Below, piece after piece: positions 11,283 through 40,600 of a stretch of DNA of 59,273 nt. Below the pieces are notes generated by a model. The model had not been told where the DNA came from, did no database searches, and saw nothing but the letters and a program-made list of their open reading frames with translations. Each line of letters opens with the position of its first letter. The stretch's first letter is position 1. The stretch comes from Verrucomicrobiia bacterium. GTDB lineage: Bacteria > Verrucomicrobiota > Verrucomicrobiia > Verrucomicrobiales > DEV007. The position numbers and the translations under genes are program-made. The stretch is from positions 1 to 59,273 of the forward strand of contig JAUIAH010000045.1 of the NCBI GenBank assembly GCA_030425385.1, written 5' to 3'.

Positions 11283-12170
11283 ATGACACCAATCATCCTA
11301 TCAGAACTACAAATGCACCTCAGCCAGGCTCTTGGGAAGACCATTGGTCCCTTGGAATTCCATCCCGTCGGAGGCGGCTGCATCCATGAAAGTGGCATTC
11401 TCAGCAGCGCGAGCAGCGACTTTCGCGCCTTCCTCAAATGGAACTCCGCTGAGCATTTGGCCAGTTTCGAGGCCGAGGCGGATGGTTTATCGGCCCTTGC
11501 CGCCCCTCAAGTGATCCGCGTGCCCCGTCCGCTGCTCCCACCTGGCACCCTGGGCGACCACGCCTACCTCCTCATGGAGGTCATTGCATTGCAGCCGCCT
11601 GTGAAACGAGCGCATTCCGAAAGACAACTGGGGCAGCAATTGGCCGCTCTGCATCGCCAAACGGGCGAAACGTTCGGATGGCCTCGCCACAATGTTATCG
11701 GCGACACGCCGCAGATCAACATCCCCGAGGACGACTGGTTGACTTTCTTTCGGGAACACCGGCTTCGATTCCAGATCGACCGCGCACGAGGCCGTGGCCT
11801 CCTCCTTTCCAACGCCGACACTTTGTTAGAGCGCCTGGAGGAATTCTTTGCATCACACACGCCCGCACCATCGCTCCTTCACGGTGACCTCTGGTCAGGC
11901 AATGTCGGCTATGATGAGACAGGAGCACCCGTTCTCGTTGATCCCGCCGTCTATCATGGTGATCGGGAAACAGATCTCGCCTTCACGACGATGTTTGGAG
12001 GATTCTCCCAGACGTTCTATGAAGCTTACCAGGAAGCGTATCCGCTAGACCAAGGCCACGCGCGCCGACGTGACCTCTACAATCTCTATCATCTTCTCAA
12101 TCACTATAACCTCTTCGGAGGCCACTACGGCTCGGCAGCCGAACAGCGCATTGCTGCTTTGCTCACTTGA
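11283..12170 (+). CDS. fructosamine / ketosamine-3-kinase family protein
   Basis: 295 residues, typical for the fructosamine kinase family. Visible motifs are PVGGGCIHESGIL near the N-terminus (nucleotide loop), the catalytic LLHGDLWSGNVG (Brenner-type HGD) and the metal-binding VDPAVYHGDRETDLA. Family members phosphorylate sugars attached to amines on glycated proteins so that the adduct falls off, a cytoplasmic protein-repair role. No signal peptide. The gene is divergent from the sulfatase with 48 bases between start codons and converges on the metallophosphoesterase gene with an 11-base gap, so it is probably monocistronic. Confidence 0.9.
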   Translation: MTPIILSELQMHLSQALGKTIGPLEFHPVGGGCIHESGILSSASSDFRAFLKWNSAEHLASFEAEADGLSALAAPQVIRVPRPLLPPGTLGDHAYLLMEVIALQPPVKRAHSERQLGQQLAALHRQTGETFGWPRHNVIGDTPQINIPEDDWLTFFREHRLRFQIDRARGRGLLLSNADTLLERLEEFFASHTPAPSLLHGDLWSGNVGYDETGAPVLVDPAVYHGDRETDLAFTTMFGGFSQTFYEAYQEAYPLDQGHARRRDLYNLYHLLNHYNLFGGHYGSAAEQRIAALLT

Positions 12171-12181
12171 GCACGCGTCGG

Positions 12182-14170
12182 CTAATCGGTGTCTAGCGCT
12201 GGGAGGTCTTCCGATGCTAACACCGCGCCTTTGCCAACCGCCACAGCGTGAGCGGCATTGGGGCCATGGTCGATATGAAAGACGCCACCAACGGATTGGT
12301 CTAAATGCAAGAGCAGCACCGTGTCCGCATCGGGCTCGTGACGGTGCCGACGCTCGAAGGATTCACCCTCATAGCGAGCCACTCGGCTGAGGCGGACCTC
12401 ATCGATCTTTCCGCGAAAGTGGCGCGTGGCTTGCCCTCGGCTACTTGGGTCCGCGCCGACGTAGAATGGGTGGGTGTTGAGTTTCCGGGGACCACTGGTG
12501 GCTTTGGTGCCGATGCGTTTCCCATCCACATACAGTCGCACTTCATTCAAGTCGTAAACGCCAGCGATGTGAAACCATTCTCCAATCGCCAATTTGTCAG
12601 GCGTTTGCACAGACTGATAGGAATCCCCTACCAAGACATCAAATTGCAATTGCCCTTCATGAAGGAAGAAGCCGAACTCCGAATTCTCTGTCTTGGCCAG
12701 CACACCGTGAGAACCCTTATTGCCTTCCCCTACCTGAATCCAGGCTTCAAGTGTCAACGGTGATTCCGCCGAGAGTTCCAGGCTTTTGGAATCCAAACGA
12801 AGCGCTCCTTCGCCCCCCAACTGGAGCACTTTGTTATCCCCTGCAGCAAACCACGCCTCTGGCAAGGCGCTGCTCAAGGTGACGGGCATTTCAAACTGCC
12901 GCGATGGGAGCGTGACGCGTGCTCCCGACGCCTCCAGGTAATCGATGTCCAGCGTGAGCGACGGCAAGGCGAATCCCTCCATTGAGGAAGCGCTCCGTTG
13001 CACGCGGAATGCAAGATCTCGCGTTTCATTTGGCGCCAACGTGAGATGACGATGACTGGGCATGATGCGCCAGTCCCCTTGCTTCGGCAACGCCGTGAGG
13101 GTGATCTCGATCGGTTCTGAGGTTGGATTATGACAGCGCGCAGCATACTCCGCGTTGATGGAGCCTTCGGCATCCAGACGTAGCGGGCCATAGGCGGAAG
13201 CGATCGTAAGCGTCCGCAGCGCGTCCAATTCGCCCAGCCGTTCTTTCCCATAGAGCCGCGGATCAATGGCACTTCCCACGGGCAAGATGGCCATCGACAT
13301 CCCTTCGTCACGCACCGTGACGATATTCAAATGATGCACGTAGCCAATCTGGGGCATGTGTCCCGGCATGGAGCCCCCTGTGGTGGCTAGGGCGAAATAC
13401 TCGATCCCGTCTTTGACGCCACCGTAGTTGAGCCGGTGGATATGACCCGCAAAGACCGCACGCACATTTCCCGCTTCCGCCAAGCGCTGGTGCACCTCCG
13501 GCCAATTGCTCTCACGATACTGTGAAAGCCAGCGGGGATGATGAAGAAATACGAAGACTTGTTTAAGATCCTTCATCTCTTTCAGAGACTGGCTAAGCCA
13601 ATCGAGCTGTTCCTGGCTCATCTGTATCTGATCCTTATCCTGGAAGCTCTTCGGCTTGCTGGCATCGCCCGTTTCATCAGTATAGAGCACGAGAAAGCCG
13701 TGATCTTTGTGGGCGAACCAGTACCAGAGCGGACCGAAGTGCTTCTCATAGTTGCCCTCGTGCTCCAACTCAGGCCGCTCCTCTGGGTTCTTGCCCCGCC
13801 AGTAGACATCATGGTTTCCAGCCACAGGAAACCACGGCATGCGCAATTCATTCATCACTCCTCGATACTCGCGCATTTCCTCCATCCACTCTGTCTCCTG
13901 GTTGTACCCATTGATCAGATCACCCACCGTCATGACGAGATCAGGATCGAGCAGATTCGTGTCCTTCACGGCCTGCTCCAGCACCGCAATCCCCTCCGGC
14001 GGTCCACCTGTCCGATCTCCATAGATCACGAAATGGAACATGTCATCCCCCTTGGGTAGCGCGAGGGGGCGCCCAGACCGGGACGTATGGATCCCTTCCT
14101 GGCCGTTGGCAAGGAGGGGCAGATGAACGAGGCAAGCCGCGGCAGAAAGCGAGAGTAGGATCAGGCGCAT
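12182..14170 (-). CDS. exported metallophosphoesterase with C-terminal LamG domain
   Basis: 662 residues from the ATG at 14170, chosen because a signal peptide (MRLILLSLSAAACLVHLPLL) follows; 15 more in-frame residues lie upstream. The N-terminal half is a calcineurin-like phosphoesterase: FVIYGDRTGGP, VMTVGDLINGY, PVAGNHDVYW, FLHHPRW and FAGHIHRLNYG. A beta-rich linker follows, and residues of about 480-640 form a LamG/concanavalin-like domain (LTLEAWIQVG, LYVDGKRIGT, FRGKIDEVRLSRVARY). The combination suggests an exported phosphatase held to a glycan or the envelope by the LamG domain. The substrate is unknown. Confidence 0.87.
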   Translation of the reverse strand: MRLILLSLSAAACLVHLPLLANGQEGIHTSRSGRPLALPKGDDMFHFVIYGDRTGGPPEGIAVLEQAVKDTNLLDPDLVMTVGDLINGYNQETEWMEEMREYRGVMNELRMPWFPVAGNHDVYWRGKNPEERPELEHEGNYEKHFGPLWYWFAHKDHGFLVLYTDETGDASKPKSFQDKDQIQMSQEQLDWLSQSLKEMKDLKQVFVFLHHPRWLSQYRESNWPEVHQRLAEAGNVRAVFAGHIHRLNYGGVKDGIEYFALATTGGSMPGHMPQIGYVHHLNIVTVRDEGMSMAILPVGSAIDPRLYGKERLGELDALRTLTIASAYGPLRLDAEGSINAEYAARCHNPTSEPIEITLTALPKQGDWRIMPSHRHLTLAPNETRDLAFRVQRSASSMEGFALPSLTLDIDYLEASGARVTLPSRQFEMPVTLSSALPEAWFAAGDNKVLQLGGEGALRLDSKSLELSAESPLTLEAWIQVGEGNKGSHGVLAKTENSEFGFFLHEGQLQFDVLVGDSYQSVQTPDKLAIGEWFHIAGVYDLNEVRLYVDGKRIGTKATSGPRKLNTHPFYVGADPSSRGQATRHFRGKIDEVRLSRVARYEGESFERRHRHEPDADTVLLLHLDQSVGGVFHIDHGPNAAHAVAVGKGAVLASEDLPALDTD

Positions 14171-23374: not shown

Positions 23375-25315
23375 ATGAAAGTCCATCTTCCCCTCCTCCT
23401 CATCATCTCGACACTAACCACACCGTTAGGATTCGCCCAGCGTTCCGCTGAAGCGACTCGCGAGAAAGTCGCGCCCGAAGACTTGGACGTTGACATGGGC
23501 GTGGCCACCATTCCAGATCGCGCGACCTTTGAAAGGCTCTCCTACCAGGGAGAGGATGTGGGGCGCGACGACTACTTGGCGGGGATCGAGTATGTGAAGT
23601 TCATCATCGATCAGGCAGGGACGGATGATCCACAGGTTTATTGGATGAACACGGAGAACTATAACGCGCATCCTCCCTTCATGGGCATGATCGGACTATC
23701 GCGTGGTCGAGGACGTCCCAGCGGGGTGCGCGGTGCCGTTTGCTATCTCCCACGTCTCCAAGCGCCTAATGGAGCCCCAGGGCTCTATATCTTCGATTTC
23801 CAACCAAACGATTCGTACACCTTCGAAGAGATTCAATCCTATTACCAATCGCTCATCGACACCGCCCCTGTTCTCCAAGGACGACTCGCCTTTCATCCCT
23901 TACGCGGCAATCTTGATCAATACGAAGAAGACAAAGCCAAGTATGAGACGGCCAAACTCCCAGTGCATTTGGATGAGGACACGCACTCAAACATCGCCTA
24001 CCTACCGCTCAACCCAGGGGTCTCCTTCGGACGGCTGCGCGTGCTGGATAATGACACCCGTTCATCCCCACGCGACATCGTGATATGTAAGACCTTGCCT
24101 AACCAAATGCCTCGTATGGCAGGCGTTCTTTCAGCCGTAAGGCAAACCCCACTTTCCCATGTGAATCTCCGCGCCGTACAAGACAAGGTTCCCAATGCCT
24201 ACATCGCCAATGTTCTTGAACAGGTGGAACCGCTCATCGGCAAATGGGTCCGCTACGAAGTGACGTCACAAGGTTACCAACTGACCGAAGCCCAACAAGC
24301 TGACGTCGATAAACACTTCGCCGCGCTCCGTCCTGCTGAACCGCAAACGCCGAGACGCAATCTTTCCATCACCACATTCCGTCCGCTCACGGAGATCTCC
24401 TTTGGTGAATCTGACAGTTTCGGCGTCAAAACGGCCAACCTGGCCACGCTGCATACCTTTGGATTCCCCCAAGGCACCGTTCCAGAAGGCTACGGGCTAC
24501 CCTTCTCCTTCTACGACGCCTTCATGAAACACAACGGCTTCTATGAAAGGGCTCAGCGTCTCCTGAATGACGAGAGCCTAAACAACGATCGCGAGGCCTT
24601 GGAACAGGCACTCAAGAAGTTTCGCAAAGCCATCGAAGCCGGGGACATGCCCGAACCACAACACTCCGCCCTGGCCAAGCTTCAGCAATCGTTCCCCAAA
24701 GGACAATCAATTCGGTGCCGCTCCAGCACCAACAATGAAGACCTGCCCGGCTTCAGCGGTGCCGGCCTCTACGACTCTTACACGCATAAACCAGATGAGG
24801 GGCATTTGGCCAATACTATCCAGCAAGTGTATGCGAGTCTCTGGAATGATCGAGCCTACGAAGAACGCACTTTCTACCGGATTGATCATCTTCACACCGC
24901 CATGGGGGTGCTCCTCCATCCCAACTTCAAACAAGAGAAAGCCAATGGCGTCGCCGTCACCGAAGACATTCTTTATGAGTCTCGCGGCGGGTTCTATTAC
25001 CTCAACACGCAGATCGGAGAGGACCTGGTCACCAACCCGGACGAAGATTCCAGTCCCGAAGAACTCTTGTTAGGCTGGTATGCCCGTGATGGCCACGAGA
25101 TCGTTCGCCCATCCAAAGACGCCCCACGCGGGGAATCGTTGTTAGGCAGCGCGCATCTGGAAGCCTTGCGCCAACACCTCGCCACCATCCACGCCGAATT
25201 TGCCAAGCTTTACAAGCGCGACCGTGAAGACCGCCACTTTGCTATGGAAATCGAATTCAAAGTCGATCGAGACGATCACTTGGTGATCAAGCAGGCTCGC
25301 CCATGGGTTTTCTAA
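23375..25315 (+). CDS. exported PEP/pyruvate-binding dikinase-like protein (GWD-type order)
   Basis: 646 residues with a signal peptide (MKVHLPLLLIISTLTTPLGFAQ). Residues about 250-266 hold a phosphohistidine-like motif, VRQTPLSHVNLRA, followed by a C-terminal ATP-grasp domain of the PPDK_N type: GVKTANLATL (350-359), RCRSSTNNEDLPGFSGAG (447-464) and the end EIEFKVDRDDHLVIKQARP. In PEP synthase and PPDK the ATP-grasp domain comes first; here the His segment precedes it, as in plant glucan water dikinases, and there is no PEP/pyruvate barrel. The signal peptide is odd, since ATP is not expected outside. The N-terminal 240 residues are unrecognised. Confidence 0.78.
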   Translation: MKVHLPLLLIISTLTTPLGFAQRSAEATREKVAPEDLDVDMGVATIPDRATFERLSYQGEDVGRDDYLAGIEYVKFIIDQAGTDDPQVYWMNTENYNAHPPFMGMIGLSRGRGRPSGVRGAVCYLPRLQAPNGAPGLYIFDFQPNDSYTFEEIQSYYQSLIDTAPVLQGRLAFHPLRGNLDQYEEDKAKYETAKLPVHLDEDTHSNIAYLPLNPGVSFGRLRVLDNDTRSSPRDIVICKTLPNQMPRMAGVLSAVRQTPLSHVNLRAVQDKVPNAYIANVLEQVEPLIGKWVRYEVTSQGYQLTEAQQADVDKHFAALRPAEPQTPRRNLSITTFRPLTEISFGESDSFGVKTANLATLHTFGFPQGTVPEGYGLPFSFYDAFMKHNGFYERAQRLLNDESLNNDREALEQALKKFRKAIEAGDMPEPQHSALAKLQQSFPKGQSIRCRSSTNNEDLPGFSGAGLYDSYTHKPDEGHLANTIQQVYASLWNDRAYEERTFYRIDHLHTAMGVLLHPNFKQEKANGVAVTEDILYESRGGFYYLNTQIGEDLVTNPDEDSSPEELLLGWYARDGHEIVRPSKDAPRGESLLGSAHLEALRQHLATIHAEFAKLYKRDREDRHFAMEIEFKVDRDDHLVIKQARPWVF

Positions 25316-25702: not shown

Positions 25703-27064
25703 ATGAGAAAGACGGTCGCACTCGCTCTATTCACCCTCGCCTCCATTGCCAGCAGTTGGGCAAGCCCGACACTGATTCAAGCGGGGCCAATGCTCGGCCA
25801 TGCTTCTGAGAATTCTGTCAGTGTTTGGCTGCGATTGAAACGAGGAGCGCTCGTGAAGGGTACGGCCCTTCAGAGAGGCGTGGCCACCCCAGTTTCGCAT
25901 TGGCAGGACCTTGGTGCTGATTGCCATGTGCTGCGCTTCACCGGCTTGAAAGCGGACGCCCTGACGCAGATCGATTTGCAGGTTGAACGCGCAGGATCGG
26001 AACCTGAGAAGGTCTCTTTGGAAACCCGCACCTATCCGGAGCCGAGCGATACGGGTGAGGTGCGCCTGGCATTTGGATCGTGTAGCAAGATTTCGCAGTA
26101 TCCCAAGGGCCCCATCTACGCAGCCATTGAGAAGGAGGCCCCGCACATGATGGTGTTTCTGGGAGACAACGCCTATTTCATCGTCGCCGATGGTTCGGAC
26201 AAGCATTTCACCACGACGGGGCCTGTAGGCGACTGGACGACTGCCGATGGGATGCGGGCGCGCCATCTGATGACGCGCATGCACCCCGATCTGCAAGGCA
26301 TGTTCCGCCGCGTGCCTTCCTATGCGGTCTGGGATGATCATGACTACGGGCCGAACAACGCAGACCGCACGTTCCCGCTGCGCGAAGAGGCGCTCTACGT
26401 CTTCAAAGAAATGTGGGCCAATCCAAGCTGGGGCACAGCAGAGACTCCGGGCATCTTTAGCCATTTCCGTTGCGGTCCCGTCGAGGTCTTCCTCATGGAT
26501 GATCGCTATCACAAGTACTCACCACTGGAGCACGACGACGTGAGCAAAGAGAATGGGGCATTGTGGGGTGAGGAGCAGTTGACGTGGTTGTTAGAAAAGC
26601 TGAGGGCATCCACAGCCCCGGTGAAGGTGATTGCGAACGGCACTCAGGTCATTTGTAAGGATGGTCGCGGCGAAGGGCACCAGACAGAAGCGGTCGGCGA
26701 ATTCCATCGTTTGGCCACGACTCTCGCCGAGCAGGAGATCGGCGGAGTCGTCTTCATCAGCGGTGATCGCCATCACAGTGAGGCGATGCAACAGGCACAA
26801 CCCGACGGCACTCTCTTGGTGGAAGCGACGAGTTCGCCACTACAACAGGATCAAGACCCCGCCGTCCTCGATCGTCACCACGTGAATCAGATCTGGGGCA
26901 TGCGAGGAAACAACTATGGTCTGCTAACGGTGACTCTCACAAACCCAAACGAAGGCACTGTCACCTTCGAGACACGAGATGCGACGAATGCCACTCACGT
27001 GGTGGCAGGCAAACCCTGCAAGACGACTTGGACCCTATCACAACTGCAATACGGCGAGCACTGA
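25703..27064 (+). CDS. PhoD-type alkaline phosphatase, exported
   Basis: 453 residues with a Sec-type signal peptide (VALALFTLASIASSWA). A beta-rich PhoD N-terminal domain (LGHASENSVSVWLRLKRG) is followed by the phosphatase domain with LAFGSCSKI, VFLGDNAYF, VWDDHDYGPNNAD and FISGDRHHSEA, which supply the metal ligands. PhoD enzymes release phosphate from phosphodiesters or phosphomonoesters outside the cell. The family is usually Ca/Fe-dependent. No Pho box was identified upstream; the 78-base gap to the previous gene would allow a separate promoter. Confidence 0.9.
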   Translation: MRKTVALALFTLASIASSWASPTLIQAGPMLGHASENSVSVWLRLKRGALVKGTALQRGVATPVSHWQDLGADCHVLRFTGLKADALTQIDLQVERAGSEPEKVSLETRTYPEPSDTGEVRLAFGSCSKISQYPKGPIYAAIEKEAPHMMVFLGDNAYFIVADGSDKHFTTTGPVGDWTTADGMRARHLMTRMHPDLQGMFRRVPSYAVWDDHDYGPNNADRTFPLREEALYVFKEMWANPSWGTAETPGIFSHFRCGPVEVFLMDDRYHKYSPLEHDDVSKENGALWGEEQLTWLLEKLRASTAPVKVIANGTQVICKDGRGEGHQTEAVGEFHRLATTLAEQEIGGVVFISGDRHHSEAMQQAQPDGTLLVEATSSPLQQDQDPAVLDRHHVNQIWGMRGNNYGLLTVTLTNPNEGTVTFETRDATNATHVVAGKPCKTTWTLSQLQYGEH

Positions 27065-27247
27065 GTACTTCCCTGCCATCTTCTCCTGCAAGCCTGCCCT
27101 CGGCGCTTACCCGCCTATAGTCGCCGCTGGGTGTGACGAAACCTTTCCAGACTTTCAAGAAATCTTAGTTGCACTGCCGATCTGTACTGTGGTTTCATCA
27201 TCTTGCACGGTGCTCACCCCGTGCCCCTCAAACCACAACCCTTACTT

Positions 27248-30200
27248 ATGCACAAATCTTGTTTCTCTGTGCAGGGAAAGATTCCATCGCGTTTCTTTCA
27301 GTCTCTTCTCGCCACTACCAGTTGCCTCGTCGTCGGCGCTGTGGGGCAAGTCACCATTGACGGCGATTTCTCCGATTGGGAGTCGATCGGCTCAGGTGGC
27401 GGCGAAGCCGTCGTCCCTGTGGATGTGCCTGATCCAGCGGACCTCGGCGATTCCAGCGGCGATATTGCCAGGATCGGTGCGACCGTGGAGGGCGACGTGT
27501 TGGTCCTCACCATGGAGTCTCACGGGGTGACGGCACCGAGTGTGGACGACACTCCAGAGGGAAAGAGCAACCGTTACTACTACCACTGGCTGATCGATAC
27601 CGATAACAACCCCGCGACTGGGGTCAACAATGGCTCTTACGAGAATACCCCCACCGGCATCGACGATCCCATTGGCACGGAGATCATCGTGCAGTTCGGC
27701 TGGCGTGATGGCGCGACGAACGGCGTCTATGCCTACAGCCCACTCGACCCTGACGAAACCGCACTCATCAGCGATTATCCTTGGGAGATGGTAGGCAATG
27801 CGATCGAAGCTCGCATCCCTCTCGATGTGCTTGGCCTGGTGCCCGGACAGACGGTATCCATTTCCGCTTTTCAAGAAGGAGCCTCCGATGATTGGGCGGT
27901 CGATTTCATGGAAAGTGGTGAACTCAAGATCCCTAGCAGTTCAGGATCCTCTACTAACGAAGTACAGGAGGTCGCCGATGCTGCTGATCTCGGTGATTCA
28001 AGTGGTGACATTGCCAGGATCAGTGCGGTCGTCGAGGGCTCCAACCTCATCCTAACCATGGCTTCTCATGGCGTCATTGCGCCCAGCGTCGACGAGACGC
28101 CTGAAGGGAAGAGCAATCGCTATTACTATCATTGGCTCATCGATACCGACAACAATCCTGGCACGGGCGTCAACAACAGCACCTATGAAAACGTGCCCAC
28201 GGGCATTGCCGATCCCATTGGCACGGAAATCATCGTCCAGTTCGGCTGGCGTGACGGGGCAACCAACGGCGTCTATGCGTATAGTCCGCTCGATCCCGAC
28301 GAAACCGCACTCATCAGCGATTATCCTTGGGAGAATATTGGCAATGAGATCAAAGCCACCATTCCGTTAGAGGCACTCGGCTTGGTCGCCGGGCAGACCG
28401 TGTCCATTTCCGCCTTCCAAGAAGGCGCTTCCGATGGCTGGGCCACCGACTGGATGGAGTCCATCGAACTCAAGATTCCCGCTTCCACCGCGACACCTGC
28501 CCAAGAGGTAGCCGACGCCGCAGACTTGGGCGATTCCAGTGGCGACATTGCTAAGATCAGCGCAGCCGTTGACGGTGCCAACCTCATCCTGACCATGGCC
28601 TCGCATGGGGTCATCGCACCAAGCGTCGACGAGACGCCTGAAGGCAAGAGCAATCGCTATTACTATCATTGGCTCATCGATACCGACAACAATCCCGGCA
28701 CGGGCGTCAACAACAGCACCTACGAAAACGTACCCACGGGCATTGCCGATCCCATTGGCACGGAAATCATCGTCCAGTTTGGCTGGCGTGACGGCGCAAC
28801 CAACGGCGTTTACGCTTACAGCCCGCTCGATCCCGACGAAACCGCGCTCATCAGTGACTATCCTTGGGAGAATGTTGGCGATGAAATCAAAGCCACCATT
28901 CCGTTAGAGGCACTCGGCTTGGTCGCTGGGCAGACCGTGTCCATTTCCGCCTTCCAGGAGGGCGCGTCCGATGGCTGGGCCACGGACTGGATGGAGTCCA
29001 TCGAACTCAAGATTCCCTCGGCTTCTGGCGGTGGTGCCAATACGAACATCATCGTCGTAGACGATCCCACCGACGACATGCTCGATCCTAGCGGAGACAT
29101 CAGGCAGGTCCGTGCGACGACGGATGGTGAGTATCTTTACCTCGGGTTGAGTGTGGAAGGCATCATCGCTCCAGGCGTTGACGATGTCGCCGAAGGGCTG
29201 TCCAACCGCTACTACTATCATTGGATCGTCGACGCCGACAACAACCCTGGCACTGGCGTGAACAATGGCACCTATGAGAACAACCCCACCGGCGTGGTGC
29301 GGACCATTGGCACCGAGATCATCGTTCAGTTAGGGTGGCGTGACGGCGCCCCGGATGGAGTCTACGCCTATGACCCCACGGATCCCGATGAGGGTTCGTT
29401 AGTGTCTGACTACGAGTGGGCAGCCATGGGCGACTCCTTTGAAGCCCGTCTCCCCCTCGCCGAGCTCAACTTGGCGGTGGGTCAGAAGGTTAGCATTTCT
29501 GCCTTCCAGGAAGGGGCTTCCGACGGATGGGCCACCGATTGGATGGAGTCTGACGAGCTCACCCTTTCGGCACCTGGTTCTGGTGGCGGAGTGGATCTCT
29601 CTCAACAAGTCTTTGCCGATGGGTACGGTTTCCAGGCAACATTGGAAGACAGCGAGGGCATCACCATCGATCCGGCGACGGTCAGCGCTACTCTTGACGG
29701 GGCAGACGTTGTCATCGAGGCGACCAAAGACGGCAGCGTCACCACAGTCGCTGGCACCTTTGCCGAATGGCTCGCGCCGGGTGGTGAGCACACTCTAAGC
29801 ATTCGTTATCCCGGTGGCTCCACTGACCTGCCTGTGGTCGTTCCTGACTACACCGTCATCCCGGCCACCTACGGCGTGAAAGCGCTCGATGGTGTTCCTC
29901 GCGGATTCGCCATCAATGTGGCCCAAGTGAGTGACATGCAGGCAGAGGGGGCGAGTGCTCATGGAAATCAGTTAGAGAAAGCTGAACAGCAGCTCGCCGG
30001 AACCCTGATCAGCGCCGAAGGAAAGCCTTTCTACAACGAAGCAAGTGGCGTCGAGAATGGATGGGCCGCAGCGACGACGACCATTGACGGCATGATCAAC
30101 TGGGCGGAAGACGCCCCCACGGAAGCGGGCAATTTCAATTCCTCCTCCACGCAGCATACCGATGTGCCCATTCCCTTGGTCGGCAACGTTGCCAATGGGT

Positions 30201-32701
30201 TGGTGGTCGAAGCGCTCGCCTACCTCGAACTCGAAGCCGGATACCACCGTCTCGGCCTTAACACTATCGGTGGCTACAAGGCGAGCATGGGGCCCGACGG
30301 ACGGGATCGGCTCTCGCCGGTGCTTGGCTCTTATGAGGACGCCGTGAACTACTCGTTCCTTGGCGACAAGTATTTCGACGTGCTCGTGCCTGAGGCGGGA
30401 TTCTATCCGATTCGTGTGCTCTTCACCCATAGCACACGCACCAAGGAAGGTGCTTCCATGGAACTCTTCTCCCTCCAAGGTGCCCGACGCGTGCCTATCA
30501 ATGATCCCAATGACCCAGATTCGATCAAAGCCTATCAGTTTCTCGGTGGGGATGCCACATACGTGAGTCACGTTTCCCCCACTCCAGGAACGGATTATGC
30601 GAGACCTAACACGTCAGTGGATCTTACCATCACTCAAGGCGGAGTCGATGTCGTTCCGGGCTCGGTAAGCATGAAGTTCGATGGCAGTCCTGTCACTCCT
30701 TTGTTAGAGTCAGACGGCGACGCCATCCATGTGCGCTATTTCCCAGGCGCTTTGGACTATGCGGGGAGCTACGAAGTCGAATTCGCCTATACGTTAGCCT
30801 TGGATCCTCCTCTACAACGTCAGGAGACCTTTGACTTCGGCGTTTATCGTGGCGCCACGGTTTTACCAGCGGAATGGGCCTCGCCCGTGGATAGTGCGGG
30901 TGAACCTGGATTCCAAGCGCGCGTGGTGCAGAATCCTGGCCCTCGGGGTAACTCCATTTCCGCCGCCGAAGCACAGCTCGCTGGCCAGGGCACGTTCACC
31001 GCGACCAAGACGGTTCCGGTGATGAACTTTGGAGGTGGTGGCCTCTTCGAAGATGCTCTCGACTTTGCCACGGAGACCCTCCTCGGAGATGGTGGCGATC
31101 AGTATTTCAGTATGGAAGTGCTCACCCATCTCCACTTGCAGCCAGGTGCCTACACCTTTGGCGTCAACAGTGACGATGGGTTCGTCGCCAGCGTCGGTCG
31201 TCTGACCTCTGACAAAACCATCATTCTGGATGGATGGGACAGCGGCCGCGGTATCGAAGACAATGAACCGCAGGACTTGTTTGACGTCGTTGTGAGACAA
31301 GAAGGTCTCTACGCGTTCCGCTTGGTGTATTTCCAAGGAACCGGCGGCGCCTCGCTCGAATGGTACCAGTATGATCGCGCCACAGAAACCGCCACGTTGC
31401 TCAACACGGAAGGCGCTCCAGCAGCCTATCACACACGCACAGTGGAGCCCATGGCCTTTGCTGGTCCTCGTCTCTCTGCGCCCGCTTCCGCTGATCTCGG
31501 CTCCATCGCCGTGACGTCGAGCGGGTTGCAGTCTGGCTTCATCCTGCACAACACCGGTTCCGAAGCCTTGCAGATCACAAGCGCCACACTGGGCGGTGAC
31601 GACATGGAGAACTTCACGGTGACCGATTTCCCTTCTAGCATTGCTGCGGGTGAAGCAGGAGCGGTCAAGGTGCGCTTCGATGCCAACGGCGTCGCTGGCG
31701 GGTATCGCACCACCTTGGAACTGACCACCAATGATCCTGATCATGCCATGGTGAGCATCGTCCTTTCGGCAGGTGCTCTCGACCCGCTTGGTCCCGTGGC
31801 GCACTATGCGCTCGATGAGGGCGCAGGAGAGTCCACCATGCGTGACCGCAGCGGGAACCAGCGTGATGGAACGTTCAACGCCGGTGACGGGACCATCGGG
31901 CTGGGACAAGAGGGGCTCGCCTCAGGATCAGCAGTCGCCTTCAGTGGCGGTTCCTATGCCAATGTCAGTGGTGATCGGTTCGGTCGCTGGGAAGACTTCA
32001 CCCTGTCGGCCTGGGTCAACGCGAACACGATCGGGGAAGCACCGCAAATGATCTTCGGAAAAGGCGATCCCTTCGGCGGCAATCCGAACTTCGCCCTGCT
32101 CTTCAGTGAAACAGGCCTCCTTTGGTTCGCTGGCAGCGAACCAGAGTTCGGATCCGATCCTGGTGTCATGCAAGCAGGTCAATCGCATCACGTGACCGTG
32201 AGCTACCTCACCTCGGCCGAGGATCGCGTCATTCAAATCTATGTGGATGGCCAAGTGGTTGCCGAACAGACGGACCCCACCTTCATCGCAACGGGCGTGA
32301 ACGAGCCCCTCTTCCTGGGGGCCTTCAACGGTGCGGTGGCCTTGGATGGCGTGTTAGACGACGTGCAACTCTACGACCGTGCCCTCACCGAAGCCGATAT
32401 CCTCACGCTCTACGAAAACCCGGGTCAATCCTTGGCTTCAGAGATTGACCCCGTGGATCCAGAGCCTTCCGGCGACGGTGTGGCGATCTCAAGCGTGATC
32501 TGGTCTGCTGGCGGTTTCGAAACCACGTTCTCGACAGAGGACGGCGTCACCTACGAACTTCAGTATAGTCCTAATCTGGAACCAGGTTCCTGGACCACCG
32601 TTGGCTCAGTGACTGGAAATGGCGGCGACCAAGTGCTCGCCGATAGTGATGAGGGGCGCGTCACGGATAAGGCTGGATATTACCGAATCCTCACGCCGTA
32701 A
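27248..32701 (+). CDS. giant secreted protein: four tandem sandwich repeats, PA14-like and LamG domains
   Basis: 1817 residues from the ATG at 27248, followed by a long signal region ending near VVGAVGQ. It opens with a CBM9-like start (IDGDFSDWESIG), then four repeats of about 170-180 residues, each with DLGDSSGDIA-like, YYYHWLIDTDNNP, GTEIIVQFGWRDGA and VSISAFQEGASD segments. Two PA14-like regions follow (YHRLGLNTIGGYKAS; PGAYTFGVNSDDGFVAS), then a choice-of-anchor/ASPM-like Ig segment (LHNTGSEALQITSATLG), a LamG domain (VAHYALDEGAGES, LYDRALTEADI) and a C-terminal module (YELQYSPNLEPGSWTTVG ... YYRILTP). It is probably a polysaccharide-binding surface or matrix protein. Confidence 0.82.
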   Translation: MHKSCFSVQGKIPSRFFQSLLATTSCLVVGAVGQVTIDGDFSDWESIGSGGGEAVVPVDVPDPADLGDSSGDIARIGATVEGDVLVLTMESHGVTAPSVDDTPEGKSNRYYYHWLIDTDNNPATGVNNGSYENTPTGIDDPIGTEIIVQFGWRDGATNGVYAYSPLDPDETALISDYPWEMVGNAIEARIPLDVLGLVPGQTVSISAFQEGASDDWAVDFMESGELKIPSSSGSSTNEVQEVADAADLGDSSGDIARISAVVEGSNLILTMASHGVIAPSVDETPEGKSNRYYYHWLIDTDNNPGTGVNNSTYENVPTGIADPIGTEIIVQFGWRDGATNGVYAYSPLDPDETALISDYPWENIGNEIKATIPLEALGLVAGQTVSISAFQEGASDGWATDWMESIELKIPASTATPAQEVADAADLGDSSGDIAKISAAVDGANLILTMASHGVIAPSVDETPEGKSNRYYYHWLIDTDNNPGTGVNNSTYENVPTGIADPIGTEIIVQFGWRDGATNGVYAYSPLDPDETALISDYPWENVGDEIKATIPLEALGLVAGQTVSISAFQEGASDGWATDWMESIELKIPSASGGGANTNIIVVDDPTDDMLDPSGDIRQVRATTDGEYLYLGLSVEGIIAPGVDDVAEGLSNRYYYHWIVDADNNPGTGVNNGTYENNPTGVVRTIGTEIIVQLGWRDGAPDGVYAYDPTDPDEGSLVSDYEWAAMGDSFEARLPLAELNLAVGQKVSISAFQEGASDGWATDWMESDELTLSAPGSGGGVDLSQQVFADGYGFQATLEDSEGITIDPATVSATLDGADVVIEATKDGSVTTVAGTFAEWLAPGGEHTLSIRYPGGSTDLPVVVPDYTVIPATYGVKALDGVPRGFAINVAQVSDMQAEGASAHGNQLEKAEQQLAGTLISAEGKPFYNEASGVENGWAAATTTIDGMINWAEDAPTEAGNFNSSSTQHTDVPIPLVGNVANGLVVEALAYLELEAGYHRLGLNTIGGYKASMGPDGRDRLSPVLGSYEDAVNYSFLGDKYFDVLVPEAGFYPIRVLFTHSTRTKEGASMELFSLQGARRVPINDPNDPDSIKAYQFLGGDATYVSHVSPTPGTDYARPNTSVDLTITQGGVDVVPGSVSMKFDGSPVTPLLESDGDAIHVRYFPGALDYAGSYEVEFAYTLALDPPLQRQETFDFGVYRGATVLPAEWASPVDSAGEPGFQARVVQNPGPRGNSISAAEAQLAGQGTFTATKTVPVMNFGGGGLFEDALDFATETLLGDGGDQYFSMEVLTHLHLQPGAYTFGVNSDDGFVASVGRLTSDKTIILDGWDSGRGIEDNEPQDLFDVVVRQEGLYAFRLVYFQGTGGASLEWYQYDRATETATLLNTEGAPAAYHTRTVEPMAFAGPRLSAPASADLGSIAVTSSGLQSGFILHNTGSEALQITSATLGGDDMENFTVTDFPSSIAAGEAGAVKVRFDANGVAGGYRTTLELTTNDPDHAMVSIVLSAGALDPLGPVAHYALDEGAGESTMRDRSGNQRDGTFNAGDGTIGLGQEGLASGSAVAFSGGSYANVSGDRFGRWEDFTLSAWVNANTIGEAPQMIFGKGDPFGGNPNFALLFSETGLLWFAGSEPEFGSDPGVMQAGQSHHVTVSYLTSAEDRVIQIYVDGQVVAEQTDPTFIATGVNEPLFLGAFNGAVALDGVLDDVQLYDRALTEADILTLYENPGQSLASEIDPVDPEPSGDGVAISSVIWSAGGFETTFSTEDGVTYELQYSPNLEPGSWTTVGSVTGNGGDQVLADSDEGRVTDKAGYYRILTP
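27431..29570 (+). repeat. four tandem ~540-bp coding repeats
   Basis: Units run from about 27431, 27970, 28505 and 29053. Units 2 and 3 are offset by 537 bases (179 codons) and differ at only scattered positions over more than 400 bases, including silent sites, so they are recent duplicates or have undergone gene conversion. Units 1 and 4 are clearly more diverged. Reading frame is kept throughout. Confidence 0.85.
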
Positions 32702-34293: not shown

Positions 34294-34399
34294 GCGGGCA
34301 TGGTAGCGTGGACGCCCTCAAGCTGGCGAGAAGAGAAGACGAAAGGACGCTTGGCCCCACACTTGCTTCCTGATAGCTTACCAGTTGCCCTCTGGTCCC

Positions 34400-37300
34400 A
34401 TGAAACACGTCATCTCATTCCTTCTTCTATGCCTCCTCACTCATGGCATCCTACCTAGAGCGTTGGCGAAACACACACTTTCAGAAGTCGTTGCTGTGAA
34501 TCTCGGTGGCCCTTTCGATAAGGACGGCGACCTCTCTTCGTGGGTGGAAATTCACAACGACACCTCCCAACAAACAGACCTCAAGAATTGGTATCTCACG
34601 GATGATCCTGACAATCTCACGAAATGGAGAATCCCCACGCGAAAAGTACCTGCTCATGGCCACGCGCTTCTCTTTTTATCAGGGAAAGACTTCGGTTCGC
34701 TCTTCTTGGAAGAAGTGCATGCTAACTTCACGCTTTCGCTCTCCACGGACTACCTCGCCCTGGTGGAGCCCGATGGTGTGACGATCGCCCATGCGTTCGA
34801 GGATCTCCCGAGTCAGCGTCCAGGCTTCTCCTATGGCATCGATGCCGATGGAGAGGCCACGTTCTTCGCCAAAGGAACGCCAGGCGAACCTAACGAAAAG
34901 CCTATCGACGGCTTTGTCAAAGACACCAAGTTCAGCATCGATCGGGGTTTCTTCACGGAACCCTTTCAAGTGGAGATCACCACGGGAACGCCAGGAGCCA
35001 CCATCTACTATTCAACCAATGGCCAGGAACCCGGCGAGGGCTCCCTCTTCACCGGACCGATCGAGCATCTCTACAGCGGCCCCATTACCATCGACAAGAC
35101 CACCGTGCTCAGAGCTGTCGCCTTCAAAGAGGGTCTCGGGCAGAGCGATATCGATACCCAGACCTACATCTTCACCCAGGACGTTGCCAAGCAATCCACT
35201 ATGCGGACATCCATCACGGAGTCTGAGGAGTGGGGTCCCCTCATGGATGACGCACTCACATCCATACCTTCCATTTCCATCGTGATTGATGATGATGACC
35301 ACTTGGTGAAGCGTGGCGGAGGGCAGACACCTTTCATGGGGACCACAGTCAACGATTATGAGTCAAAAGTCTCGGTAGAATGGCTCAACGGCGATGGCTC
35401 CGACGGCTTTCAAGTCGATGCGGGTGTCTCTCGCTTTGGCGGCTATTACACCGATCACCAGAAATACTCTTACCGCTTTCAATTCCGAAAGAAGTATGGG
35501 ACGCCGACGTTGAAATACCCCGTCTTCCGTGGCCATGAGAACGGGAGAGCACCGGTGGAAACATTCGATTCATTGAATCTCCGATCCGGGTCACACGATA
35601 TGCAGGCGCGGGGAGCCTATCTTTCGAATCGGTTCTGTGATGACACGATGCTCGAGATGGGCGGCATGGCACCTCATGGGCGTTTCGTCCACGTCTATAT
35701 CAACGGGAACTACAACGGCCACTACCATTTGCGAGAGCGCTGGAATGCCGCCATGCATGCAAGCTACTTTGGTGGAAGCGAAGATGACTATGACGCTATC
35801 AATCGCAATGATAATTTCACCGCAGACGCCAAGGCCTTTGATGGTGATCAGGTGTATTGGAAAGAATTGGAAGTACTCGCCCGCAATGGCAGCCCATGGG
35901 AATCCCTCCAGGGTCACATCGATCTAAAAGACTATTACGAATTCATGATGGTATGGTCATCGGGAAACTCGGAGAGTGAGATGCAAGCCGTCGGCTCCAA
36001 GGCGCTTGGTGTCCCCTTCACCTTCTATATGAAAGATGCCGATGGCTGGCTGGTCCCCAGCGCCTTCAATAGCGGTCGCACCCGATGGTTAGTCACTGGG
36101 CCCGGTCGCTTCAACACCCTGCTGCGCCAGGAGAAACACTCGGATCACCAGATCTTTCTTGCCGATCTCATTCATCAACACTTTACCCATGATGGTGCTA
36201 TGACGGCAGATAAGATGGTCGCTCGCTTGCAACGCCGCGTCGACGAATTAGAAACCGCTTTCATCGCCGAGTCGGCTCGTTGGGGAAAGTACACGCCTGA
36301 TGCCTGGCGTAGATACCAACAGAATATCATGAATCGCCACTTCTCCAATTTGGCAACCAACATGCTCAAGATATTCAAGGATATCGACGCTTATCCGAAG
36401 GACATTCAAACACCTTCTTTCAACCAACGCGGAGGTACCATTACGCCTGGATTCACGCTCAAGATTTCCGCCGGCTCGCTCTTCAATCCCGAACCGGGTT
36501 TCTTCTTCTACACGCTGGATGGCACTGATCCACGATTGCCAGGAGGAGCCCGGTCCGAAGCAGCACTGGTTTACGACAAAGAGACCAATGGTCTGCAACT
36601 TGATGACACGGTGACGGTGAAAGCACGCACGTTCCGCACGAGCCTCTTTAATAGTGGTGTCTGGAGTCCTCTCATCGAAGCGACCTTTCATATAGGCGAA
36701 CGGCCACAACCCGGCGATCTCGTCATTTCCGAAATTCATTATCGACCGGCAAAGCCCAGCGCGGAAGAGGTGGCAGCGGGCTTTGACAAACGGAGTTTCT
36801 TCGAATTTATCGAAATCTACAATCGCAGCGATCACGCCGTAAGCCTCCACGAAGTCTCTCTCACCAATGGCGTGCGCTTTCATTTCCAGGAATCGGAAGG
36901 GACCCATCTGGCCCCTCATGAGGTGGTCTTGGTGGTGGCGAACCAACAAGCGTTCGCACTCCGTTATGGAAATGAACTCCCCGTGGCCGGGGCCTTTGAG
37001 GGATTCAAATTGGACGACGGGGGAGAAGCGCTCCGGTTGACTCGTCGTGACGGCGTGGTCCTTCAGGAGTTACGCTATCATGACAAGGATCCCTGGCCAG
37101 AGAGCGCGGATGGCGATGGTCCCAGTCTCACTCTCAAGAGTCCGCAATCCAGGAGCAGCGATGAGCCCTCGAGCTGGATGGCGAGCGCGACAATGGGAGG
37201 ATCGCCCGGCACGGTGCCAGCCAGCGGAGCAGAATTTGATCATCCAGATGAGTGGGATCAGGATGGCGATGGAATGACCGCTCTGCTAGAAGAGGCCCTG

Positions 37301-37588
37301 GGATCCAGTGATACCGATCCCCTTTCTGGGCCGCGGAACCTGACATTGAGGCGAGTGACCGAGGGTTCGGAGACACATTGGACCATTCATGCGACGCGTG
37401 GTCAGATCAACGGGTTCACCTATGAACTGGAGCTATCCCACGACCTCGATACGTGGCAGACCGCCGAAGAGGTCTTTGAGGCCCCCTCAATGGAAGACGC
37501 TGATGGGCTAACGTGGCGCGCTCGCCATCCTGTCAGCTCAGAAGCCCGAACCTCTCTCTTCATCCGCCTCAAGGTGACACGATCCTGA
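34400..37588 (+). CDS. CotH-like protein with lamin-tail and chitobiase-C domains (catalytic Asp missing)
   Basis: 1062 residues from the ATG at 34400, giving signal peptide MKHVISFLLLCLLTHGILPRA. Order: lamin-tail domain (LSSWVEIHNDTSQQTDLKNW), chitobiase C-like segment (GTPGATIYYSTNGQEP), CotH-like core (YINGNYNGHYHLRERWNAAM), a second chitobiase-like segment (FFYTLDGTDPRLPGG), a second lamin-tail domain (ISEIHYRP ... FFEFIEIYNRSDHAVSL), an Asp-rich thrombospondin-3-like stretch (DEWDQDGDGMTALLEEALG) and a C-terminal module. Where active CotH kinases have a WDxD-type metal site after FYxKD, this protein has SAFNSGRTRW, so it may be a pseudokinase. It shares its layout with the next gene. 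Confidence 0.82.
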   Translation: MKHVISFLLLCLLTHGILPRALAKHTLSEVVAVNLGGPFDKDGDLSSWVEIHNDTSQQTDLKNWYLTDDPDNLTKWRIPTRKVPAHGHALLFLSGKDFGSLFLEEVHANFTLSLSTDYLALVEPDGVTIAHAFEDLPSQRPGFSYGIDADGEATFFAKGTPGEPNEKPIDGFVKDTKFSIDRGFFTEPFQVEITTGTPGATIYYSTNGQEPGEGSLFTGPIEHLYSGPITIDKTTVLRAVAFKEGLGQSDIDTQTYIFTQDVAKQSTMRTSITESEEWGPLMDDALTSIPSISIVIDDDDHLVKRGGGQTPFMGTTVNDYESKVSVEWLNGDGSDGFQVDAGVSRFGGYYTDHQKYSYRFQFRKKYGTPTLKYPVFRGHENGRAPVETFDSLNLRSGSHDMQARGAYLSNRFCDDTMLEMGGMAPHGRFVHVYINGNYNGHYHLRERWNAAMHASYFGGSEDDYDAINRNDNFTADAKAFDGDQVYWKELEVLARNGSPWESLQGHIDLKDYYEFMMVWSSGNSESEMQAVGSKALGVPFTFYMKDADGWLVPSAFNSGRTRWLVTGPGRFNTLLRQEKHSDHQIFLADLIHQHFTHDGAMTADKMVARLQRRVDELETAFIAESARWGKYTPDAWRRYQQNIMNRHFSNLATNMLKIFKDIDAYPKDIQTPSFNQRGGTITPGFTLKISAGSLFNPEPGFFFYTLDGTDPRLPGGARSEAALVYDKETNGLQLDDTVTVKARTFRTSLFNSGVWSPLIEATFHIGERPQPGDLVISEIHYRPAKPSAEEVAAGFDKRSFFEFIEIYNRSDHAVSLHEVSLTNGVRFHFQESEGTHLAPHEVVLVVANQQAFALRYGNELPVAGAFEGFKLDDGGEALRLTRRDGVVLQELRYHDKDPWPESADGDGPSLTLKSPQSRSSDEPSSWMASATMGGSPGTVPASGAEFDHPDEWDQDGDGMTALLEEALGSSDTDPLSGPRNLTLRRVTEGSETHWTIHATRGQINGFTYELELSHDLDTWQTAEEVFEAPSMEDADGLTWRARHPVSSEARTSLFIRLKVTRS

Positions 37589-37659
37589 CTCACTGGGAAA
37601 GGTATTGCGCCGCTTCTCCACCATTTATACATTATTGGAATCACGCTTCCCAAACTTCT

Positions 37660-40600
37660 ATGAAAACCCTACCCACCCTAGCCAGTCTCGTGGCTGCTGC
37701 CTCCACTCTCCAGGCGGCTCCGAGGATCTCCGAGTTTGTGGCCGACAACTTGGCAGGCTACCAAGAAGACGACGGCGACTATTCAGACTGGATTGAGATT
37801 CACAATCCTGATCCTGGAAATTTGAAATTGAGCGGCTGGTACCTCACGGACGATGCCGAGGATCTCCAGAAATGGGTCTTTCCTAGCAATGCTACGATTC
37901 CCGAGAATGGCTATCTCGTGGTGCACGCCTCTGGAAAGAACAAGGCCACCCTCTTCGCCAGCACCTTCCATACGAACTTCTCACTGGCTGCCGGTGGTGA
38001 ATACCTTGCCTTGGTAGATCCCGACGGCACCATCGTTCACGAATTCTCCGAAGAATATCCTAACCAATATGTCGACATCTCTTACGGAACGATTGGCGAC
38101 AATGCTGGCTACTTTGCCTCCCCGACACCGGGAGAAGCCAACGGAGATTTCATCGGCGCGCCCCCGAAGAAGGTCGATTTCTCTTTCGATGGCAAGACCT
38201 TCTTCGATTCCTTGGAAGTGACCTTGAGTCACGAGGACCCCGAGGTCGCGATTCGCTACACTCTGGATGGTACCGAGCCCACGTTATCACTCTTTCAACC
38301 AGCCACGCTTTACGACGGCCCCATCACCATTGACGCCACCACCACCCTTCGAGCGCGCGCTTATAAGGATGGCAGTCTGCCAGGCAATGTGAAATCCGAG
38401 GTCTTCATTCAGTTAGGCGAAGACATGAAGGACTTTGAGTCCAACTTAGCACTTTGTTTCCTCGATTCCTTCGGAACACGCGTCGATTCCCTCGGGAAAA
38501 ACAATCTCTACACCACCGCTGCCGTCTTTATCGATACCGATGAAGGTACCGGTATGGCTGCCCCGGACGGTGAAAGCGATTGGGCGGGCCGTATTGGGAT
38601 GCGCCGACGCGGGCAGAGTTCTTTGGACTTTGCCAAGAAGCAGTATCACTTCGAATCTTGGGACGAGCATGATCGCGACAAATCGGTATCTATCTTCGGC
38701 ATGCCCGCGGAATCGGATTGGATCATCCACGCCCCGTATGCTGATAAGACGCTCATGCGCAATTACCTGACCTACCATTGGTCGCGCGCCATGGGACACT
38801 ACGCCGTGCGCACCAAGTTCATGGAGGTCTTCTACAACCCGACCGATGGCGAGCCCGTCACTTACGATGATTACCGCGGCGTCTATGTGTTCATGGAACG
38901 CATCAAGCGCGATGGCGACCGCGTCGACGTGGAACCTCTCCTGCCTGAGCACGACAGCGAACCTGAGATCACTGGCGGCTACATCTTTCGCAAAGACAAG
39001 GAAGATCAGAACAATATCACCATCCGCACGGCTACCGAAAGGCAAACGCTGCAGATCATCGAACCGGAATACACGATTACCGATAAACAGAAGGCTTGGT
39101 TGACCAATTACTTGAATGAAATGGAAGAAGCGCTTCACGGCGACAGTTTCGATGATCCCGAGGAAGGCTTTCGAAAGTACTTCAATGAAGCAAATGCCAT
39201 CGATAACCACATTCTTGTCGAGTTTACGAAGAACATCGATGGCTATCGACTGAGCAATTACATCTACAAGGATCGCGGCGGGAAGATGAACTTTGTAGCC
39301 TGGGACTACAATCTTTCCCTTGGCAATGCCAACTATCTCAATGGTTGGATCCCTGAGGGTTGGTATTATGGGTTGATCACCCGTGATCAGTATCCCTGGT
39401 ATCGCGACATGTTCGAAGATCCCGAGTTCGCCCTCACATACATGGACCGGTGGTATGAACTCCGGCGCGGAATGTTCGCTACTGACGCGCTCATGACGCA
39501 AATCGATGACCTCACCGATCACCTCCGTGACGCCGCCGGACGCAACTTTGTGAAATGGGATCGCTTGGGCAAATATGATTGGCCCAACCCTGACGGATAC
39601 GCCCAACGGCAAACCTACCAGTCCGAGGTCGACTTCATGAAGGATTGGCTAGCGGAACGCGTGGAATGGATCGATGACCAATTCGAACCACCGGTCAAAT
39701 TCAATCACCAAGGAGGTCCCCTAGAACCTGGCACCACCTTGACCATGGACAATAAGATCAGCCTCTTCAAACCGCGTCCTGGCAAGATGTATTACACGCT
39801 GGACGGTTCGGACCCAAGGCTTCGCGGTGGCGAGGTGAATCCAGAAGCACTTCTCTATGAGGATGGCGTGCCCCTCACCGAATCTGGGACCGTGAAAGCG
39901 CGCCTGTTATTGAACACCGGCGAATGGTCGGCCCTGAACGAAGCGGACTTTATTGTGGGTGAATTGGCCAGCAGCGCAAATCTACGGATCACTGAAATCA
40001 TGTATAATCCCACAGATCCATCTGAAGATGAGATCGCTGCGGGATTCGAGAATAATGACGATTTCGAGTATCTCGAATTGCTCAACACGAGTGACGGTCC
40101 GATCCAGCTCTACGGAGCGCAATTTGTCGATGGCGTGACTTTCCACTTCACCGACGGCATCCTGCACACTCTCGGTGCGGGTGAACGCGCCTTGTTAGTC
40201 GCGAATCTCGACGCTTTCACCTACCGCTATGGCGGTGGACTGCCCGTGGTGGGTGCGGTCCAATCAGGTCAACTCAGCAATGGCGGTGAAACGCTGAAAT
40301 TGATAGGCGCTGACGGAGCCACCATCGCGGAATTCGCCTACGATGATGACGCAGAAGCCGGGTGGGCTGAAGAGGCCGATGGCGGCGGCTTTGCCCTGGT
40401 CCTTGCGAACGAATCCGGCTCCCTCAATTACGGGGAGCCGAGCATGTGGACCACTGGTAAAGAAGGCGGCACTCCCGGCACGTCCGAGACCAGCGACGGA
40501 CACCCCACTTTCAATGCCTTTGAAATCACCGATATCGCTGTCGACAACGATGGGTTGGAGATCCATTTCACCAGCCAGGAGGGCGTGGATTATGAGATCC

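Follow-up and report, generated by a model that had tools for sequence, protein, structure and literature searches.

A predicted exported dikinase-type protein family with VTC and DUF4956 genes as recurrent operon partners

An ATP-grasp domain and a swivel domain occur together in the plant glucan and phosphoglucan water dikinases (GWD and PWD), in PEP synthase and PPDK, and in rifampin phosphotransferase (RPH), which we take to be a cytosolic enzyme. In GWD, which phosphorylates starch, the swivel (PF22973) precedes the C-terminal ATP-grasp domain and the starch-binding module is a CBM45 or CBM20, while PEP synthase and PPDK carry the domains in the opposite order together with a PEP/pyruvate barrel. 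RPH is arranged as ATP-grasp domain, rifampin domain and swivel, according to the accessible text of PMC4844700. Structures of GWD were still missing in 2026, as stated in the accessible part of PMC12892837.

Kinase-type proteins of another kind are encoded beside genes of VTC, a polyphosphate-polymerase family. A contiguous set of CotH, polyphosphate polymerase, DUF4956 and DUF4832 genes lies by the Pel cluster in streptococci and clostridia (PMC7112168, available portion). In Streptococcus intermedius, Pel levels were altered and aggregation was reduced when either a secreted CotH-like protein or a membrane protein was mutated (PMC12345266); the available portion of that report does not use the name DUF4956 for the membrane protein, and it states that the three-gene arrangement was not found outside Pel. 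A search of the literature, conducted mostly outside subscription journals, returned no report of an exported dikinase. Here we describe such a candidate, encoded in a 59,273-nucleotide stretch of Verrucomicrobiia DNA (the window), and the homologous family to which it belongs.

Domain order, fold and catalytic residues of the window protein

The gene occupies positions 23375–25315 on the plus strand of the window as an open reading frame with an ATG start and encodes 646 residues. Its N-terminus (MKVHLPLLLIISTLTTPLGFA, followed by Q) reads by eye as a Sec-type signal peptide, with neither lipobox nor twin arginine, covering residues 1–21 (23375–23437) and with a putative cleavage site after GFA. 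An N-terminal domain (residues 33–206; 23471–23992) is followed by the phosphohistidine swivel domain (residues 206–307; 23990–24295), whose TPLSHVNLRA motif at residues 258–267 (24146–24175) carries the predicted phosphohistidine H262 (24158–24160), and by the ATP-grasp domain (residues 331–646; 24365–25312). In Pfam, PPDK_N (ATP-grasp) matched residues 348–643 above its cut-off (E 8.1e-27) and GWD1_pHisD (PF22973) matched residues 248–309 below it (E 0.023, 14.7 of 27 bits). The latter match is not due to chance, since a search of the source genome (8.0 Mb, 95.5% complete) with this model at E up to 10 returned three places only, namely the window gene and two full-length paralogues, none of them above the cut-off, and since 29 of the 52 aligned members match the model at E up to 0.1 (best 7e-5). 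No PEP/pyruvate barrel family matched the window protein in Pfam or NCBIfam, no carbohydrate-binding module appeared among the Pfam matches of the window protein and the aligned members, and the dikinase had no match in PHROGs. The signal peptide, the TPLSHVNLRA segment ahead of the ATP-grasp domain, the missing barrel and the GWD-like domain order had all been proposed in a sequence-only reading of this DNA and are borne out, the signal peptide by inspection of the sequence and the others by the profile searches and, for the domain order, by structural alignment.

The NCBIfam models for PEP synthase and RPH hit ATP-grasp residues only, far under their cut-offs; the best PEP synthase model spans residues 337–531 (72 of 598 bits) and the RPH model reached 58.9 of 999 bits. 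Domain order and scores rule out membership in RPH, PEP synthase and PPDK. The protein is not a GWD either, because it has no starch-binding module, its swivel profile match stays under the cut-off and its homologues show no consistent glycan neighbours; unlike GWD and PWD it is also predicted to be exported and has an N-terminal domain that resembles none of the folds tested. The likeness to GWD covers domain order and swivel type, not substrate.

We modeled the full-length protein with AlphaFold2 using the window protein together with sequences from 51 of the 80 homologous loci (mean pLDDT 89.7, pTM 0.85). By VIA alignment, residues 206–307 superpose on the swivel part of RPH (5fbu 754–867; Z 10.9, rmsd 3.0, 97 aligned), and residues 331–646 superpose on the RPH ATP-grasp domain (5hv1; Z 30.1, rmsd 2.5, 289 aligned). 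The earlier assignment of residues 240–280 to a phosphohistidine domain therefore withstood structural comparison. The swivel domain of RPH comprises residues 767–865 with His825 (PMC4844700), and H262 would pair with His825 as read from the aligned ranges only. The C-terminal region of pyruvate kinase also matches (3t05 478–583, Z 10.4), and the accessible text of PMC4844700 names pyruvate kinase among the folds similar to the RPH swivel. Swivel profiles run against PDB sequences gave no hit at E up to 1, one of the alignments being poor with one row much longer than the others.

Residues H262, K352, R447, R449, S468, E627, K629, Q640 and R642 are invariant in all 52 aligned rows, which come from several phyla, and H262 is likewise invariant in a 26-row alignment of the swivel. 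In RPH, Lys22Ala abolishes activity and Arg117Ala and Thr136Val abolish resistance, while Glu297Ala remained active (PMC4844700, accessible text); we read Lys22, Arg117 and Thr136 as the counterparts of K352, R449 and S468. The invariance of E627 proves little because the matching Glu297Ala stayed active. The hinge is mostly HPN[FY] in the family (H515 in 52/52 rows, P516 in 45/52) where RPH has QQMI, and nucleotide use could thus differ from that of RPH. The altered hinge residues, like the low-complexity and Ca-type repeats of these secreted proteins, would also suit a surface protein that has kept the fold but is catalytically dead or structural. The retention of the catalytic histidine, lysine and arginines and of the E...Q.R motif in 52 of 52 rows across several phyla argues against such a protein, and we give it little chance.

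The N-terminal domain, of a type that RPH does not have, was predicted alone with a pLDDT of 92.7, and K75 and H99 are present in all 51 rows with a letter at those positions. Foldseek, VIA and BFVD searches yielded no convincing match for its fold in the PDB or BFVD, the best being a cofilin-like structure by Foldseek (E 0.014), polyphosphate kinase 1 by VIA (Z 4.6, rmsd 4.9) and a BFVD entry at E 0.44. The likeness to polyphosphate kinase 1 was dropped as noise-level, like all fold hits of this domain. Among 38 related genomes, 34 of the 35 N-terminal domain rows sit in frames that also match the whole-protein search beyond this domain; the remaining row (G001:C182) is a 174-residue frame that holds the N-terminal domain alone and, by its coordinates, is cut by the contig start. 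By exclusion, this is probably the acceptor-side domain.

Export signals and distribution of the family

A crude signal-peptide rule was passed by 67 of the 76 homologues not cut at their 5' end, out of 80 loci; a generous form of the same rule was passed by 308 of 763 neighbouring frames. Three of the nine homologues that failed are broken or short frames, and in the other six a hydrophobic stretch can be seen by eye. Behind the signal peptide, many members have EF-hand-like or TSP3-like repeats (three examples gave Pfam E values of 0.0013, 0.0057 and 0.027, under the cut-off), and all three Bacteroidota loci end in a Por_Secre_tail (T9SS) match at E 0.0006–0.001, again under the cut-off. By all signs available in the sequences, the family appears to be exported, in agreement with the signal peptide noted in the window protein.

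According to record titles, the family occurs in Verrucomicrobiota, Planctomycetota, Poribacteria, Acidobacteriota, Bacteroidota and a few other phyla, and the homologous loci come nearly all from metagenome-assembled genomes. In a sample of the own phylum, seven of 288 genomes gave matches, three nearly full length and the others partial. Four matches were obtained in phage records, all within residues 316–643 and hence in the ATP-grasp domain, and 91 in plasmid records, the best two being from Streptomyces. In Neolewinella agarilytica (L113; G319:C45:141383-143230) a TAA interrupts the dikinase frame, as a real break or a sequencing error, and the upstream frame carries the signal peptide and a TSP3-like part.

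Relatives of other layouts were also seen. The Streptomyces protein WP_331760287 (P0005), named as a PEP/pyruvate-binding domain protein, shares the TPLSH swivel and the ATP-grasp domain in the same order; the two proteins are 27% identical across 464 columns starting at residue 150, with an N-terminal domain likeness by eye before that. It differs in lacking a visible signal peptide and in its genomic neighbours, a BacD-like ligase and an MFS transporter. The Streptomyces plasmid locus (L162:5599-7611), with its BacD-like amino acid ligase and MFS transporter neighbours, perhaps belongs to a natural-product pathway. The own genome holds a second exported-looking family of the P0004 type (L005; G000:C33:82466-83800; 1068 residues), with a similar N-terminal domain region, a PEP-utiliser swivel motif, an ATP-grasp domain and an additional region at the C-terminus. 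The match of P0004 to the PEP-utiliser mobile domain falls just under the cut-off (E 0.00015), and the stretch around its histidine can be aligned with the window protein. A 964-residue frame (L004; G000:C21:61957-62943) contains PPDK_N with an unrecognisable swivel histidine motif.

VTC, DUF4956 and CotH genes around the dikinase and across genomes

In the window, the dikinase gene lies between an acyl-ligase gene upstream and a PhoD-like gene (25703–27064) downstream. Neither appeared in the three loci compared from the same genus, and two of these have another upstream gene in common, of the dienelactone hydrolase type (by Pfam in one); the window neighbours were therefore not used as evidence. 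A PhoD-like phosphatase next door would suit an extracellular scavenger that splits ATP into AMP and phosphate for phosphorus supply, but its absence from the same-genus loci, and from the recurrent neighbour clusters as well, makes this function very improbable. Further downstream, positions 27203–32701 encode an 1832-residue protein that looks exported and in which four similar modules in tandem can be made out by eye. Two adjacent plus-strand genes of the CotH family with an LTD domain follow: the first, at 34385–37588 (CotH E 4.7e-13), starts about 9 kb downstream of the dikinase gene and forms no operon with it, being part of the genome-wide association described below, and the second is listed at 37513–40728 (E 5.6e-55) with a mechanically assigned start, such that the two listed frames overlap by 76 bases. 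These CotH genes mean little alone, because, by simple arithmetic, at least 43 CotH matches spread over 8.0 Mb make it no rarity to find one within 15 kb.

The neighbours of the dikinase vary between lineages and mostly within a genus too. A Pfam survey covered 109 neighbouring proteins from 41 loci, out of 140 candidates of which 20 were lost to a size filter and 11 left out; among the 25 families listed of 209, the commonest were beta-propeller (5), VTC (5) and DUF1501 (4). A regular-expression search for VTC in the loci found nothing and was replaced by HMMs for VTC and DUF4956 built from Pfam-confirmed members. With these, both genes turned up near the dikinase in 11 of the 80 loci (L074, L076, L080, L081, L082, L083, L085, L089, L092, L106 and L112). 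Every one submitted to Pfam was confirmed, for VTC in L074, L080, L082, L085, L089, L092, L106 and L112 and for DUF4956 in L074, L076, L082, L085, L089, L092 and L112. In nine of the 11 loci, VTC, DUF4956 and dikinase share one strand and are spaced by -10 to 79 bp, in the orders VTC–DUF4956–dikinase, DUF4956–VTC–dikinase or dikinase–VTC–DUF4956, and the start codon ATG of the L076 dikinase overlaps the stop codon TGA of DUF4956. In L106 and L112, a CotH–VTC–DUF4956 trio on the opposite strand starts within 1.2 kb of the dikinase. Calling further 250-residue neighbours VTC proved wrong for nine of ten proteins tested. The stored flanks of the other 69 loci, some of them short, contain no VTC or DUF4956. 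By arithmetic, from one or two copies per 5–8 Mb genome, VTC would be expected by chance in fewer than one locus over the 1.37 Mb of loci. Five of these 11 loci are closely related to one another, and a quick tree of 84 rows required five changes of the VTC label, three of them forced by well-supported branches; none of 500 shuffles was as low (shuffle mean 10.6). This strong clustering indicates that the linkage arose in a handful of events. The recurrent operon partner of the dikinase family is VTC–DUF4956, which is a new finding. The arrangement resembles the CotH–polyphosphate polymerase–DUF4956 set in that a kinase-type protein is encoded with VTC and DUF4956, and differs from it in that the operon holds a phosphohistidine dikinase instead of CotH.

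The sequence-only reading had pointed to a glycan substrate. An exported glycan dikinase, phosphorylating a surface or imported polysaccharide as GWD does starch, would fit the GWD domain order and the GWD1_pHisD-like swivel, and also the CotH, polyphosphate polymerase and DUF4956 genes that adjoin the Pel cluster in some Gram-positives (PMC7112168, available portion) and the altered Pel and aggregation of the Streptococcus intermedius mutants (PMC12345266, available portion). Moreover, a cluster that we read as sulfatases occurs at scattered distances in 18 of 81 loci and LamG-type proteins, by our reading, occur in 15 (Poribacteria by titles), and their recurrence keeps a glycan setting in consideration. 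The homologues have no consistently adjoining glycan gene, however, and the missing carbohydrate-binding module and the unmatched N-terminal domain fold likewise speak against such a substrate. The glycan claim is accordingly not supported, and we regard a glycan dikinase as improbable.

The window copy of the dikinase is not part of a VTC–DUF4956 operon; the module is found elsewhere in the own genome, on contig C73, as VTC, DUF4956 and then an HlyD-type gene. Two genomes from the same family have an OEP (TolC-type) gene behind a biotin-lipoyl/HlyD-type gene, so that HlyD- and OEP-type genes adjoin VTC in the own clade. Directly upstream of VTC on C73 lies a 2383-residue gene read as NRPS-like (L173:800-10851).

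We examined co-occurrence in 38 related genomes including the own genome. A search with the N-terminal domain called the family in 14 of them; a fifteenth, G031, matched the whole-protein search over the ATP-grasp domain only, had no N-terminal domain and was therefore not counted. VTC was present in 14/14 genomes with the family and in 7/24 without it, and DUF4956 in 14/14 and 6/24 (Fisher p 1.7e-5 and 4.3e-6 by genomes, 3.9e-3 and 2.6e-3 at genus level). Restricting VTC to E<1e-24 gave 14/14 versus 2/24 (p 1.2e-8 by genomes, 1.2e-5 at genus level), the two genomes being 62% and 83% complete, and at least nine CotH copies were found in 14/14 versus 0/24 (p 1.0e-10 and 1.9e-7), the 24 having 0 to 4; both of these cut-offs were chosen after the tables had been seen. 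All these p-values are too small because the genomes are related, and the CotH counts per genome are lower bounds at about 43, a number reached in the own genome. In all 14 relatives the dikinase and VTC are on different contigs. Twelve distant genomes with the family, picked by hand and not at random before the VTC link was known, contained DUF4956 in 12, CotH in 10 and VTC in eight cases; each of the three was found in three of 14 control genomes.

The two distant genomes in which CotH went unmatched at E up to 1e-10 are Bryobacterales in which the dikinase sits in the VTC–DUF4956 operon. They bear on a reading in which the dikinase runs toward the nucleotide, making ATP outside the cell from AMP and polyphosphate or another donor and thereby feeding CotH kinases. 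PPDK makes ATP in reverse in bacteria and protozoa (PMC5371819, accessible text), and the co-occurrence with VTC and tens of CotH copies would accord with such a supply. The Bryobacterales operons, holding a dikinase where no CotH match was found, count against it, and we consider this direction of the reaction improbable.

A proposed extracytoplasmic phosphotransferase

The window protein is likely an active, exported dikinase-type phosphotransferase that shares a pathway with VTC–DUF4956 and CotH. The more specific reading that we prefer, with somewhat better than even confidence, is that this phosphohistidine dikinase is the extracytoplasmic phosphotransferase of the VTC–DUF4956 module, taking the place that a CotH protein has in other copies of the module. 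The dikinase would be exported by Sec and act outside the cytoplasm. By analogy with RPH and PPDK, its ATP-grasp domain would move a pyrophosphoryl group from a nucleotide to H262 of the swivel; of the two phosphates, one would go to water and the second would travel with the swivel to an acceptor bound by the N-terminal domain or close to it.

The sequence-only reading had found an ATP-dependent enzyme outside the cell surprising, and the supply of ATP there is indeed a real puzzle. Candidate donors would be surface ATP, nucleotide rebuilt outside, or polyphosphate derived from the module. A broader scheme, which we think rather unlikely, is an extracellular phosphorylation economy run on exported polyphosphate: the polymer would come from VTC and cross the envelope by way of DUF4956 and its HlyD- and OEP-type partners, and the dikinase and the putatively exported CotH proteins would spend it on surface targets, directly or through an outside nucleotide pool. 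How kinases work where ATP is scarce is an open problem, and the present family offers an apparently intact and, as predicted, exported dikinase conserved in several phyla, with partner genes that suggest where its phosphate could come from. DUF4956 and bacterial VTC genes also gain a testable context in the Bryobacterales dikinase operons that have no CotH match.

A further gene recurs beside some family members. In L049, a same-strand gene after the dikinase (11931–12551) encodes a secreted-looking, Arg/Gly/Ser-rich protein with EF-hands, and equivalents are found in L043, L056, L059, L061, L067 and L091. The spacing to the dikinase is 62–64 bp in five of these seven loci, and the genes overlap in L043 and L059. 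The encoded protein is possibly a substrate of the dikinase, or it may duplicate the leader region of the dikinase itself.
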